Shown here: in pieces, positions 990-9,942 of the stretch | How positions within the stretch are numbered: position 1 is the stretch's first letter | Layout: every line of letters begins with the position of its first letter | From: Chloroflexota bacterium | Lineage (GTDB): Bacteria > Chloroflexota > Dehalococcoidia > DSTF01 > JACRBR01 | Assembly (NCBI GenBank): GCA_021813085.1 | Contig: JAKAMA010000042.1 | Coordinates: 1 to 11,251, forward strand | DNA length: 11,251 nucleotides | Direction of reading: 5' to 3' | Made by a program: the position numbers and the translations under genes | The notes under the pieces: model-generated | What the model was told of the DNA's origin: nothing | Databases searched by the model: none | Seen by the model: the letters and a program-made list of their open reading frames with translations, nothing else

Positions 990-2018
990 TCAACGCGCCT
1001 CCGGCATGCCGCGGTCGAGGTAGTCCAGCCGCAGGGCCTTGCGGACGGCGGAGATCGTCTCCTCAGCGGCGTCGAAGCCGGCCTTGCCGCCCTTCGCGAG
1101 CGCGTCCTTGACGAGCTGCGGGCGCGCCTCGAAGTACGCGCGACGCTCCCGGATCGGGTCGAGCAGGTTGTTGATGGCGGCGACGAGCTTCGTCTTCACC
1201 TCGACGTCGCCGACGGCGCCGCGCACGTAGCGCTCCTTCAGGCCGGCGACCTCGGCCGCGTCCGGGTTGAAGGCGTCGTGGTACATGAACACGGGGTTGC
1301 CCTCGACGTGCCCGGGGTCGGTCGCGCGGAGGCGCGTCGGGTCGGTGTACATGCCCATGACCTTGCGGCGCACGGTCTCGGCGTCGTCCTTGAGGTAGAT
1401 CGCGTTGTCGAGCGACTTGCTCATCTTCGCCTGGCCGTCGGTGCCGACGAGCCGCGGCACGCGGCCGACGAGCGGCTCCGGCTCCGGGAAGACCTCGCCG
1501 AAGTCGCGGTTGAACTTGCGCGCAATCTCGCGCGTCATCTCGATGTGCGGGAGCTGGTCCTCGCCGACCGGCACGAGGTGCGCGCGCGGCATCAGGATGT
1601 TCGCCACCTGCATCACCGGATAGATGAAGAAGCCGACGGGCACGCCCTTCTTGCCGACGTCGAGGTCCGCCATCTCGGCCTTGAGCGTCGGGTTGCGCTG
1701 GAGGCGGCCGAGCGGCATGAACCAGCTCAGGTGCACCATCAGCTCGGCGTGCTGCGGCACCATGCTCTCGATGACGAAGTGACTGCCTTCGGGGTCGAGT
1801 CCGACGGCGAGCCAGTCGAGCGCCACCTCCCAGACGGACGCGCGCACGCGGTCGATGTCATCGGCGTAGTCCGACACCTGGTAGTCGGCGATGAGGAAGA
1901 AGCACTCGTACTCCTTCTGCAGGCGCACCCAGTTCTCGAGCGCGCCCGCGTAGTGGCCGAGGTGCAGCGGCCCGGTGGGGCGGATGCCGGTCAAGATGCG
2001 GCGGCGGGACGGTGTCAT
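990..2018 (-). CDS. trpS: Tryptophanyl-tRNA synthetase
   Basis: A class I aminoacyl-tRNA synthetase that charges tRNA-Trp in the cytoplasm. The protein is 342 residues, close to the usual 330-340. The HIGH signature is HLGH at residues 19-22, inside TGIRPTGPLHLGH, and the KMSKS signature is exact at 198-202. Between them is the tRNA-synthetase stretch VGEDQLPHIEMTREIA (151-166). An upstream in-frame start would add 21 residues unlike the family. ATG 2018 was chosen because the family begins with RRRILTGIRPTG and an AAGG ribosome-binding site lies 7 nt upstream (2026-2029). It follows the four-helix-bundle gene in the trp operon and is joined to trpE by a one-base gap. Having trpS under a Trp T-box makes sense, since the sensed molecule is uncharged tRNA-Trp. 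Confidence 0.96.
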   Translation of the reverse strand: MTPSRRRILTGIRPTGPLHLGHYAGALENWVRLQKEYECFFLIADYQVSDYADDIDRVRASVWEVALDWLAVGLDPEGSHFVIESMVPQHAELMVHLSWFMPLGRLQRNPTLKAEMADLDVGKKGVPVGFFIYPVMQVANILMPRAHLVPVGEDQLPHIEMTREIARKFNRDFGEVFPEPEPLVGRVPRLVGTDGQAKMSKSLDNAIYLKDDAETVRRKVMGMYTDPTRLRATDPGHVEGNPVFMYHDAFNPDAAEVAGLKERYVRGAVGDVEVKTKLVAAINNLLDPIRERRAYFEARPQLVKDALAKGGKAGFDAAEETISAVRKALRLDYLDRGMPEAR

Positions 2019-2074
2019 GGCGAGGCCTTGCCAGCGAGTGCGCCGTGAGGCGGGCCGCCGGAGCGAGAGTACGA

Positions 2075-2165
2075 CGGACAACAGACGCCAGACGCCAGAC
2101 GACAGACAACAGACAACAGACAGCAGACGACAGACGACAGACGACAGGCAACAGGCCGCAGATCA
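2075..2165 (+). repeat. CAGACRR heptamer array B, downstream of the four-helix-bundle gene
   Basis: About 13 consecutive 7-nt units in strict register. The consensus on the plus strand is CAGAC followed by two variable bases (GC, GA, AA, AG); the last three units are degenerate. The final unit (2159-2165) contains the stop codon of the four-helix-bundle gene, so the array abuts the ORF exactly. It lies in the gap between that gene and trpS. Bases 2112-2135 are a perfect reverse complement of 2643-2666 in array A. Confidence 0.93.
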
Positions 2166-2576
2166 GTCGGTGACATACTCTTCCTGCACGTCGCGGAACG
2201 CCTTCGCGCTGCCTGTCTGCCGATCGAGCTCGATCATCTGCGCGGAGATCATGCGCAGGATCTCGTCACACCGACGCATCAACTCTTCCTCCCGCTCCGG
2301 CGAGATGTAGCCTCCACGCCTCAACAGGTCGAGCCAGCTCAGTGTCTCATTCCCTGAGCCGCGCGCGATGGAGAGATGGTTACGATAAGCGCCCGCAGCG
2401 AATCTGCCGTGGCCCTCTGCGATGTTCGCCGCGATCGACGTCGCGGATTTGAGGAGTTGCTGTCCAAGAATCATGCTCGCACGATCTCCCGGCAGCGCCC
2501 TCACGACATGCAGCACGACCAACGAGAGCTCCTGCGCCTTCTGCCAGACCGCGAGATCGCGGAACGAGTACTTCAC
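2163..2576 (-). CDS. Four-helix-bundle protein of the S23/Avd-like family
   Basis: A 137-residue all-helical protein of the family first known from 23S rRNA intervening sequences and related to Avd of diversity-generating retroelements. Its role in this setting is unknown, although some relatives bind RNA. The family hallmarks are visible: YSFRDLAVWQKAQEL (residues 3-17), a second helix with KSATSIAANIAEGHGR (43-58), then YRNHLSIARGSGNE (64-77) and a C-terminal helix from about 93. GTG 2576 was chosen because it gives the usual family start, but no good ribosome-binding site precedes it. The frame stays open upstream to TTG 2690, through the heptamer array. The gene lies between trpB and trpS, is flanked by inverted heptamer arrays, and looks less GC-rich than its neighbours. 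All this fits an inserted cassette, although it is transcribed with the operon. Confidence 0.9.
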   Translation of the reverse strand: MKYSFRDLAVWQKAQELSLVVLHVVRALPGDRASMILGQQLLKSATSIAANIAEGHGRFAAGAYRNHLSIARGSGNETLSWLDLLRRGGYISPEREEELMRRCDEILRMISAQMIELDRQTGSAKAFRDVQEEYVTD

Positions 2577-2606
2577 GCGGCGCGAAGGACTGCGAAGCGA
2601 GCTCCG

Positions 2607-2668
2607 GTCTCTGTCGTCTGTTGTCTGCTGTTTGCCTCTGTTGTCTGTCGTCTGCTGTCTGTTGTCGC
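2607..2668 (-). repeat. CAGACRR heptamer array A, between trpB and the four-helix-bundle gene
   Basis: About eight 7-nt units. On the plus strand they read NNGTCTG (for example TCGTCTG, TTGTCTG, CTGTCTG), so on the minus strand the consensus is the same CAGACRR as array B but in opposite orientation. One unit (2635-2640) has lost a base, which shifts the register. The 24 bases 2643-2666 are the exact reverse complement of 2112-2135. The array lies wholly inside the open frame that extends the four-helix-bundle ORF upstream. Confidence 0.92.
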
Positions 2669-2696: not shown

Positions 2697-4058
2697 TCAG
2701 GCGACCACGGGCACGGACTTCATCGCCTCCCGCACCTTCGCCTCCGGGTAGGCGAAGTCGTGCAGCTTCCCGGCCAGGTAGTTGTCGTACGCCGTCATGT
2801 CGAAGTAGCCGTGGCCGCTCAGGTTGAAGAGGATCGTCTTCTTCTCTCCCGACTGCTTGCAGGCGAGCGCCTCGTCGATCGCCGCGCGGATCGCGTGGGC
2901 GCTCTCCGGCGCCGGCACGATGGCCTCGCTGCGCGCGAACTGCATCGCCGCCTCGAACACGGTGTTCTGGTGGTAGGCGCGCGCCTCCATGAAGCCCTGG
3001 TCGTACAGCTCGCACACCAGGTTGGCCATGCCGTGGTAGCGCAGGCCGCCCGCGTGGATGCCCTCCGGGATGAACGTGTGGCCGAGCGTGTACATCTTGA
3101 CCAGCGGCGTCATGCCCGCCGTGTCGCCGAAGTCGTAGCGGAACTCGCCCTTCGTGAGCGATGGGCACGCCTCGGGCTCGACGGCGATGAAGCGCGTCTT
3201 GCGCCCTTCGACGAGCTTCTCCCGCATGAACGGGAAGGCGATGCCCGCGTAGTTCGAGCCGCCGCCCGCGCAGCCGATGACGATGTCCGGGTACTCGCCC
3301 GCCAGCTCCATCTGGCGGATGGCCTCCTGGCCGATGACGGTCTGGTGCATCAGCACGTGGTTGAGCACGCTGCCGAGGGAGTACTTCGTGTCCTCGCGGG
3401 TCGCCGCGTCCTCGACGGCCTCGCTGATCGCGATGCCGAGGCTGCCGGGCGTGTCCGGCGTCGCGGCGAGGATGGCGCGCCCAGCGTTCGTGTCGGGGCT
3501 CGGGCTCGGCACGACGCTGGCGCCGTAGACCTGCATCAGCGAGCGGCGGTACGGCTTCTGCTCGTAGCTCACCTTCACCATGTAGACCTTGAGCTCGATG
3601 CCGAAGAAGTTGCACGCCATCGCCAGCGCGCAGCCCCACTGGCCGGCGCCGGTCTCGGTGGTGATGCGCGTCACGCCCTCCTGTTTGTTGTAGTACGCCT
3701 GCGCGACGGCTGTGTTCGGCTTGTGCGAGCCGACGGGCGACGCGCCCTCGTACTTGAAATAGATGTGCGCCGGCGTGCCGAGCGCCTTCTCGAGCCGGCG
3801 GGCGCGGATCAGCGGCGTCGGCCTCCAGAGCCTGTAGACCTCGCGGATCTCCTCGGGGATGTCGATGTAGCGCTCCTGCGACACCTCCTGCTTGATCAGC
3901 TCCATCGGGAAGAGCGGCGCCAGCGCCTCCGGGCCGATGGGCTGGTGGGTGCCGGGGTTGAGCGGTGGCGGCGGCGCCTTCGGCAGGTCCGCGGCGATGT
4001 TGTACCAGCGCTCCGGCAACTCCGACTCCGGCAACATGAACTTCGTCTGCTCTACCAT
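2697..4058 (-). CDS. trpB: Tryptophan synthase beta chain, TrpB2 type
   Basis: A pyridoxal-phosphate enzyme that condenses indole with serine to give tryptophan. The 453 residues, longer than the roughly 400 of classical TrpB1, and the N-terminal stretch [14 protein letters not shown] followed by [10 protein letters not shown] mark the TrpB2 class. The cofactor lysine is Lys113 in GSHKPNTA. A glycine-rich phosphate-binding loop, [11 protein letters not shown], lies in the second half, and GETGxG-like TETGAGQWG follows the cofactor site. ATG 4058 was chosen over an upstream ATG (4115) because GGAGG sits 9 nt upstream (4068-4072), and because the upstream extension is encoded by heptamer repeats. 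First gene of the T-box operon; no trpA is visible nearby, which is common for TrpB2. TrpB2 may act alone on free indole or replace TrpB1, and the window cannot decide which. Confidence 0.95.
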
Positions 4059-4078: not shown

Positions 4079-4127
4079 CAGACCCAAGAACCATGAACCG
4101 AGAACCAAGAACCAAGAACCAATGACC
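4079..4127 (+). repeat. AAGAACC heptamer array C in the trpB leader
   Basis: Seven units of 7 nt: CAGACCC, AAGAACC, ATGAACC, GAGAACC, AAGAACC, AAGAACC and AATGACC. The sequence differs from the CAGACRR family but the period is the same. It lies downstream of the T-box terminator and just upstream of the trpB ribosome-binding site, so it is transcribed only when the riboswitch reads through. On the RNA strand it reads GGTTCTT repeats. Confidence 0.9.
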
Positions 4128-4144: not shown

Positions 4145-4178
4145 CAAAAAGCCCCCACCCCTATGAGGGGCGAGAGCT
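4145..4178 (-). terminator. Rho-independent terminator of the Trp T-box
   Basis: On the RNA strand a 13-bp stem (arms 4166-4178 and 4150-4162, with several G-U pairs) closes on a CAU loop and is followed by UUUUUGUUU. The 5' arm begins shortly after the T-box motif, as expected where terminator and antiterminator exclude each other. Confidence 0.93.
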
Positions 4179-4476
4179 TGCTCGCGGTACCACCCTGCGT
4201 TCGTCCCTACGGACGCGCGCCGTACGGACATCTCGGACGGCACAGGCGTTTCGGCCGATGCCGCGGGCCGTGGTAACGGCGCCCAACCCGTCGGTGACTA
4301 CTGCCCGGTGCCTGGAGCACGCAGCCGGGGGCGGCTACGCTCCATGTCCACCAGGGTTCGGTCCGAAGCTCCCGGGTCCATTCGGTCTGCTGCGCCGCCG
4401 CCGGCTTTCACCTGCCCCGGCTCTCTTCTCGGCCCGCTGCCAGACGTACTCTTCCCGATCGTTGCCTCCTGGTATG
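4145..4476 (-). promoter_or_regulatory. Tryptophan-specific T-box riboswitch leader
   Basis: A cis-acting RNA that binds uncharged tRNA-Trp and then prevents termination, switching on trpB and the genes behind it. The T-box motif AGGGTGGTACCGCG is exact on the minus strand (4183-4196); its UGGU pairs with the tRNA acceptor end. Stem I begins near 4460 with GGGAAGAGTAC. Its distal part carries GAGAAGAGAGCCGGGG and then GGTGAAAGCCGGC, matching the AG bulge and apical loop of known T-boxes. The specifier context is GAA-TGG-ACC, with TGG at 4378-4380, the codon for tryptophan, in agreement with the genes controlled. A CCGTTA element follows at about 4274. The terminator hairpin completes the switch. 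The exact 5' end is inferred from the promoter. Confidence 0.95.
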
Positions 4477-4541: not shown

Positions 4542-4559
4542 TCGGGCGAGGTGGCGCCG

Positions 4560-4811
4560 ATGCCCGACGTGCTCGTGCGCGGTCTGGAACCGCCAGTCCT
4601 CGCGCGACTGAAACATCGCGCGAAGAAGCACCATCGCTCGCTGCAGGCCGAACTCAAGCTGATCCTCAGTGAGGCGGTCGAGGCCGACGAGGTTTCGTTC
4701 GAGGAGGCCGTCAGGTTCGCTGACGAGATGCGCCGGAAGTACGCGGGTACGATCACCGGCGATAGCACCGACCTGATTCGGGAAGCCCGCGACCTCGCCG
4801 CGGTCGACTGA
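4560..4811 (+). CDS. FitA/VapB-like ribbon-helix-helix antitoxin, without a toxin
   Basis: An 83-residue protein resembling antitoxins that bind DNA through an N-terminal ribbon-helix-helix and neutralise a PIN-domain ribonuclease (VapC/FitB) through the C-terminal tail. Residues 2-8 (PDVLVRG) form the DNA-contacting strand; helix A is about 10-23 and helix B about 27-39 (SLQAELKLILSEA). The C-terminal stretch DSTDLIREARD resembles the toxin-blocking tail of the family. ATG 4560 was preferred to GTG 4551 because GAGGTGG lies just upstream and MPDVLVRGL is the usual start. No toxin follows: the next gene is on the other strand, 9 nt after the stop codon. It may be an orphan antitoxin, a remnant of a lost VapBC pair, or a regulator of its own or of the adjacent trp promoter. 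Confidence 0.85.
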   Translation: MPDVLVRGLEPPVLARLKHRAKKHHRSLQAELKLILSEAVEADEVSFEEAVRFADEMRRKYAGTITGDSTDLIREARDLAAVD

Positions 4812-9871: not shown

Positions 9872-9892
9872 GCGGGCGCCTCCGGCGCAGGG

Positions 9893-9920
9893 CAGACGGC
9901 AGACAGCAGACGACAGAAGG
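9893..9920 (+). repeat. CAGACRR heptamer array D behind rho
   Basis: Four units (CAGACGG, CAGACAG, CAGACGA, CAGAAGG) between the rho stop codon and its terminator. Eighteen bases (9900-9917) are identical to 2117-2134 in array B, 7.7 kb away. No four-helix-bundle gene accompanies it. Confidence 0.88.
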
Positions 9921-9942
9921 CCCGCCGCATCGGCGGGCTTTC
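9918..9942 (+). terminator. Hairpin terminator of rho
   Basis: GCCCGCCG and CGGCGGGC form an 8-bp stem around CAT (9920-9938), followed by TTTC, 50 nt after the rho stop. The U tract is short, so termination may be partial. Confidence 0.72.

Follow-up and report, generated by a model that had tools for sequence, protein, structure and literature searches.

The S23-family gene inserted between trpB2 and trpS in the window (the whole 11,251-nucleotide stretch of Chloroflexota DNA analysed here) is probably, at a rough probability of 0.7, one copy of a very small mobile element that occurs in many bacteria, has no recognised recombinase and gives rise to MITE-like satellites, in the manner of REPIN/RAYT systems. 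Such an element would comprise an S23 gene between inverted arms of 7-nt (sometimes 8-nt) units with a Y-R-G core, mostly 4.5 units long; it would sit at gene junctions, often within operons, and come or go along with its arms, and in some genomes arm pairs of the same word would spread as satellites without the gene. The features of the window are as follows:

2163..2576, minus strand: S23-family (PF05635/TIGR02436) four-helix bundle gene of 137 codons, from GTG (2574-2576) to TGA (2163-2165) by ORF reading; profile matches, model pLDDT 92.6.
2610..2666, minus strand: 5' arm of tandem heptamers, word CAGACRR on the gene sense strand (array scan).
2071..2154, plus strand: 3' arm of 11 heptamers, on the gene sense strand the 5' arm word reverse-complemented (array scan).
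2112..2135, plus strand: left half of an exact 24-bp inverted repeat (sequence comparison).
2643..2666, minus strand: right half of the same repeat (sequence comparison).
2697..4058, minus strand: TrpB2-type tryptophan synthase beta gene, the host gene before the insertion (PRK12391, TIGR01415).
990..2081, minus strand: trpS, the host gene after the insertion, ORF as listed (TIGR00233); its true start is probably near 2018.
4080..4122, plus strand: single array of a different word, AGAACCA, at the trpB2 start, separate from the cassette.
9891..9921, plus strand: short CAGACRR-type array after rho, separate from the cassette.
4163-4471, minus strand: T-box-like leader upstream of trpB2 (57.2 bits, under the gathering score of 93).
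4551-4811, plus strand: orphan FitA-like ribbon-helix-helix antitoxin gene (PF22513).

The order on the minus strand is T-box-like leader, trpB2, S23 gene, trpS and trpE, the last identified by its Anth_synt_I_N and Chorismate_bind domains. A preliminary description of this DNA had placed an S23-like gene between trpB and trpS; both the family (99.1 bits with PF05635, cut-off 33.8; 96.8 bits with TIGR02436, cut-off 24) and the insertion were confirmed, although the upstream gene is a TrpB2-type paralogue. The modelled protein has the four-helix bundle fold of solved S23 members. The CAGACRR arrays in opposite orientation on each side and the 24-bp inverted repeat are as described there, but the stop codon of the gene, which was thought to lie within the downstream array, falls just outside the strict 7-nt array. 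The genome assembly to which the window belongs (G000; 2.5 Mb, 77% complete) contains three S23 genes, all three with inverted heptamer arrays and each with its own word: CAGACRR in the window, GTCAGTA at L021 and GGGAAGC at L023. CAGACRR is not limited to the cassette, as exact CAGACRRCAGACRR occurs at 144 places in this assembly compared with about 0.3 expected by our estimate from letter frequency.

The expectation that heptamer arrays would also flank homologues at other loci was borne out. At 51 S23 places, drawn from this genome and others of the class, period-7 arrays (score of at least 10 within 250 nt) were present on 73% of 102 flanks compared with 2% of 96 control segments taken within those loci; for any other period between 4 and 13 the share was 0-6%. 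A scan of 84,980 species gave 589 confirmed S23 stretches, the best 80 of which were examined as named loci: 7- or 8-nt arrays flanked the gene on both sides at 48, were one-sided at 21 and were not found at 11, with period 7 on 90/154 flanks (9/146 controls) and period 8 on 22/154 (2/146 controls). These best 80 loci span 18 named phyla as well as unplaced records, with arrays in 16 of the 18 phyla, and include one archaeal locus with a one-sided array. In the same relatives, ParE-toxin genes, used as a control for small accessory genes, had arrays on 0/60 flanks (30 loci). Chance or assembly artefact was rejected in view of the class, named-locus and ParE controls and of complete plasmid records. 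The lack of arrays at 11 of the best 80 named loci and at several of the 51 class loci counts against a mobile element of this kind. The low-scoring PF05635-like matches L044 and L045 had no arrays. None of these best 80 loci matched LSU rRNA at the gathering score, so that '23S rRNA intervening sequence protein', as the family is called, is a misnomer for them. A single tblastn query against 50,697 phage records returned no S23 match. Random 20-kb stretches (200 kb from each set) contained too few arrays for a comparison of S23-bearing with S23-free genomes (4 versus 1 for period 7; 5 versus 0 for period 8). One 10.5-kb locus (L059; G006, C18) carries four clustered S23 genes or remnants, each with its own pair of arrays and with different words, and resembles repeated insertion into one region.

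The arms were compared at those 79 of 139 loci where both flanks carry 7-nt arrays. They are inverted and match within each locus: the 5' unit and its own 3' unit agree at 6.1/7 letters when the latter is reverse-complemented, compared with 3.1/7 for the direct 3' unit and 3.75/7 for other loci, and in 60/79 the partner arm is the best or tied match. The words themselves are diverse, with 86 distinct among 102 units, and share a common register, a Y-R-G core and then four less constrained letters (log-likelihood -702; the best of ten letter-shuffled sets reached -742). Read on the gene sense strand, G exceeds C in 92/111 5' arms and C exceeds G in 90/101 3' arms. Arm length peaks at 4.5 units (62/181 arms; medians of 4.57 units for 7-nt and 4.31 for 8-nt arrays), and four units plus the next triplet contain five Y-R-G cores; the arms in the window exceed this norm, which counts against the element. 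Mean agreement between words falls with protein identity (6.1/7 at 80% or more, 7 pairs; 4.9 at 65-80%, 19 pairs; 3.5-3.9 below), and the idea that the protein dictates the word was rejected (Spearman 0.165; 0/500 permutations). A period of 7 or 8 fixed for each S23 clade was likewise rejected, with 14 changes compared with 18.8 in shuffles (at most 2/500 as low), a count that rests on a poorly resolved 105-column tree. Within single arrays CAAACAG changes into CAGACAA (L264, 545-623) and GAACCAA into CAGACAA (L013, about 1447-1522), in both cases with the 7-nt phase kept.

That the two arrays could pair in the mRNA, as the preliminary description proposed, agrees with the predicted fold of the cassette RNA, in which they are paired at -307.7 kcal/mol compared with -260.4 (sd 5.9) in 20 shuffles. 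The arms might accordingly be no more than an RNA hairpin for excision by RNase III, spread by ordinary recombination with the protein uninvolved; the Coxiella intervening sequence (IVS), with its RNase III excision and 28-bp inverted ends, offers a precedent (PMC4990558, in excerpt). A hairpin, however, needs no 7-nt periodicity, common Y-R-G core or 4.5-unit arms, and across phyla the S23 protein is conserved and keeps invariant polar residues, so that we regard this explanation as quite improbable.

The preliminary description implied that the trpB2-trpS junction should be empty in sister genomes if the cassette were mobile, and that the cassette should not be fixed there throughout the lineage. 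trpS adjoins next in 15 of the 20 trpB2 loci read, and in these 15 the contents of the slot vary: an S23 gene in five (G000, G001, G006, G009, G015), nothing in seven (G003, G008, G010, G014, G016, G020, G021), and a Y1 transposase (G007, PF01797), a gene-less arm pair (G017) or another ORF (G028) in the remainder. The cassette is not fixed at this junction. The transposase ORF in the G007 slot (L074, 2684-3280) is IS200-like and flanked by GCGCGGGC palindromes in a RAYT/REP-like arrangement; the pair in G017 (L077) consists of inverted AGAACC-type arrays just after trpB2. Comparison of G000 with G001 was informative, as the difference at 4-fold sites is 0.12 for TrpB2 and 0.15 for TrpS but 0.68 for S23, and the array words differ; the slot has therefore been refilled or its cassette replaced. 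The copies in these two sister genomes are not identical by descent, and a single vertically fixed cassette was rejected on this ground and on that of the varying slot contents. An S23 gene also directly precedes trpS in G011 and in G002, where it is decayed and no trpB2 was found. This arrangement recurs in the order, and the genes concerned fall near each other in the tree, in a region of weak support, so that a target preference is possible.

Empty sites were found on cyanobacterial plasmids, where S23 genes separate the partners of an operon (nrdB/nrdA, cas6/cas4, cmr2/cmr3, conjugation genes) and close plasmids without the insertion exist. The arrays at L102, L103, L104 and L107/L108 are inverted and 7-nt, and those at L105 and L106 scored with period 8. 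At the conjugation-gene site the element is present in two T. variabilis plasmids and in Scytonema, with 14 nt of difference between the Trichormus and Scytonema arrays; the site is empty and array-free in Aulosira, N. linckia, N. carneum and Tolypothrix, whose matched parts are 97-98% identical. The empty site has a single GTAAT and the filled one has GTAAT at either end of the insertion, a possible target duplication seen at this site only. A decayed remnant lies at the same insertion point in Nostoc C052, so that gain and precise loss are not distinguishable here; both points count against the element. A second site, after an integrase gene in Calothrix, has three empty counterparts. A different Aulosira plasmid carries a related copy (82% identity), with homology over 416 nt that is bounded by the two arrays. 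For the cas6/cas4 copy no empty plasmid site was found, one record covering the cas4 side. At L104 (cas6/cas4) and L105 (cmr2/cmr3) the S23 gene lies within a CRISPR operon; the 23S rRNA IVP domain figures among the CRISPR-linked domains of a published survey (PMC10910872, in excerpt), a link that such insertions might explain.

These sites bear on the possibility that the arrays were there first, as genomic repeats, with the S23 gene just inserting into them. Single arrays are indeed common in the genome of the window, where 18 of 20 fetched array regions held a single array and 2 a pair, which also counts against a mobile element with two arms. The empty sites, by contrast, are array-free; moreover, insertion into one array would leave direct arms, and the arms are inverted (6.1/7 versus 3.1/7, as above). 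We consider prior arrays a highly implausible explanation.

Among 60 genomes CAGACRR occurs at 144 places in G000, 118 in G001, 17 in G002, 17 in G006 and 11 in G007, and at 0-4 in the others; S23 genes with this word are present in G000, G002 and G006. G001 has its 118 places yet a slot copy with the word CAAACAG, and in the 72% complete assembly of G007 no matching S23 was seen beside its 11; both count against the element, as does Geobacter AOG1, where the word occurs only in its own S23 array and is not dispersed. Elsewhere the word is specific to its genome, with CAGTTCT at 176 places in its own Terriglobia genome and CGGGATT at 80 in its own Rhodanobacter genome, compared with 0-1 in 12 others in each case.

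The 80 places in this Rhodanobacter genome (G060) form 54 arrays, 30 of which make up 15 convergent pairs, with no divergent pairs. All 15 pairs are gene-less, with 20-86 nt between the arms, and by loose patterns they share with the single gene-bearing copy an inner AAGC/GAGC motif (13/15) and a GCTTT-like motif (12/15) beside the arms. One pair lies between pheS and pheT; in an alignment of 14 of 15 Rhodanobacter-genus genomes (G076 left out) this junction is occupied by an arm pair in three (G060, G073, G075), the other 11 being empty and array-free there. Matches to the junction query, flanks included, numbered 50 in G060, 33 in G071, 50 in G073, 52 in G075 and 3-11 in the other 11 genomes, counts that may be low as only 21 candidates were scored per genome. 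S23 genes are present in five of the 15 (G060, G071, G073, G075, G083), with GGGATT-type arms in G060, G073 and G075, four CGGGACT units plus CGG on both sides in G071, and a different, GTGAGAA-like word in G083. The four satellite-rich genomes thus each have an S23 gene of the same word or of a one-letter variant, and the word of G083 differs; in this one genus, satellites have expanded only beside an S23 gene of matching word. Many copies were found in 4/5 genomes with any S23 gene and 0/10 without (Fisher P 0.004; Mann-Whitney P 0.02), the P values being a guide only as these genomes are related and not independent. The preliminary interpretation of a repeat-protein cassette with mobility is supported in part.

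Word matching within a genome, and the restriction of satellites to genomes that have a matching S23 gene, would also fit a regulon, in which S23 is a nucleic-acid-binding regulator that recognises the arrays in mRNA leaders and gaps, its own among them, the arrays are kept by selection on regulation, and any mobility is incidental. The arrays do lie at gene junctions, and regulatory sites were proposed by the authors who described arrays in Geobacter and Beggiatoaceae (PMC2700814, PMC4679880, both in excerpt). Against this, for many satellites a clean empty counterpart marks them as inserted DNA (judged at one junction, pheS-pheT), array words turn over fast, and the entire unit of gene plus arms is gained or lost. 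A regulon is rather unlikely as the whole explanation; neither it nor an excisable hairpin excludes a mobile element.

How such an element might move can be sketched tentatively. Two solved S23 entries have five chains each. TRAP is an RNA-binding ring that reads spaced triplets. By analogy, a five-subunit S23 ring could bind the five cores of an arm, one Y-R-G core per subunit, as single-stranded RNA or DNA; we hold this five-core model to be possible rather than probable. The ring would bring the arms to a host activity that copies them; if the element encodes no enzyme, copying must come from the host. The absence of any known enzyme from the element, and the indirect nature of the evidence for movement, count against the mobile reading. 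That the arms match despite fast-changing words suggests that both are rewritten together, which could occur by copying through the paired hairpin or if each new copy were made from one arm; the arms of one element would then match while its word drifts freely. As the arms can pair in the transcript, insertion into an operon may stay nearly harmless, as for 23S rRNA intervening sequences. Pentameric assembly has a published example in XCC0516, described as a homopentameric ring (PMC4990558, in excerpt).

The mobile element proposed here shares traits with several described systems. The 23S rRNA IVS of Coxiella has an S23 ORF and terminal inverted repeats, both also present in the window cassette, and carries 2-3 tandem GACAGAT heptamers before the ORF in strain-variable copy number (PMC4990558, in excerpt). 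The cassette differs in lying in a protein-coding operon (trpB2, trpS), with no rRNA match in the window, and S23 elements differ in their two-sided array arms and in the existence of satellites. The REPIN/RAYT system (PMC3116915, in excerpt) is resembled by Rhodanobacter, with one gene copy per genome and many gene-less inverted pairs with the same ends. S23, however, does not belong to the Y1 transposases, and no catalytic domain is known in it, PF05635 being the only Pfam match of the window protein (E of 0.001 or less), and the element ends are arrays of 7- or 8-nt units rather than single palindromes. A cautious reader could label the S23 element an IVS- or REPIN-type variant. Avd of diversity-generating retroelements is a structural relative with about 12% identity; no reverse transcriptase was recognised among the part of the window ORFs that was scanned.

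Tandem units of 7 (or 8) nt, often in convergent pairs and intergenic, also characterise heptamer repeat families in cyanobacteria, Xanthomonas, Geobacter and Beggiatoaceae, and the genome of the window has the STRR-like trait of tandem heptanucleotide units dispersed between genes, at the 144 exact places noted above. In the excerpted sources, heptanucleotide repeats date from Calothrix in 1990 (cited in PMC4692102); GGGAATC arrays in Xanthomonas are mostly of four units, with 70 convergent pairs in X. campestris and no known role (PMC4692102); Geobacter has paired tandem hepta- and octanucleotide sites of about four per array, called regulator sites (PMC2700814); and the TAACTGA arrays of Beggiatoaceae have no evident transfer mechanism (PMC4679880). 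In the accessible portions of these three papers the term S23 is absent and no partner gene is proposed, and those of PMC10910872 and PMC11637426 merely name the S23 family. In the open-licence literature we found no paper generally linking S23 genes to such arrays, and the association, which is real and general, is unreported as far as our searches go.

To our knowledge, no known mobile system joins array ends of free 7-nt sequence with a non-catalytic ring protein. S23 structures have been solved since 2006-2007 without a known function, and the heptamer arrays of cyanobacteria, Xanthomonas, Geobacter and Beggiatoaceae have so far had no known origin; the link between them gives each something definite to test, in the form of a protein, a candidate target about 31 nt in length, and sister genomes that either carry or lack satellites. 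It is conceivable, and we suggest it with reserve, that S23 rings are the trans-acting parts of bacteria-wide recombinase-less mobile DNA, the ring reading arms of about 31 nt and the host copying them, and that the heptamer repeats described since 1990 are its satellites. If true, this would be a class of mobile element that lacks a recombinase gene and whose ends are almost unconstrained in sequence, and would bear on how Avd came to serve reverse transcriptases.
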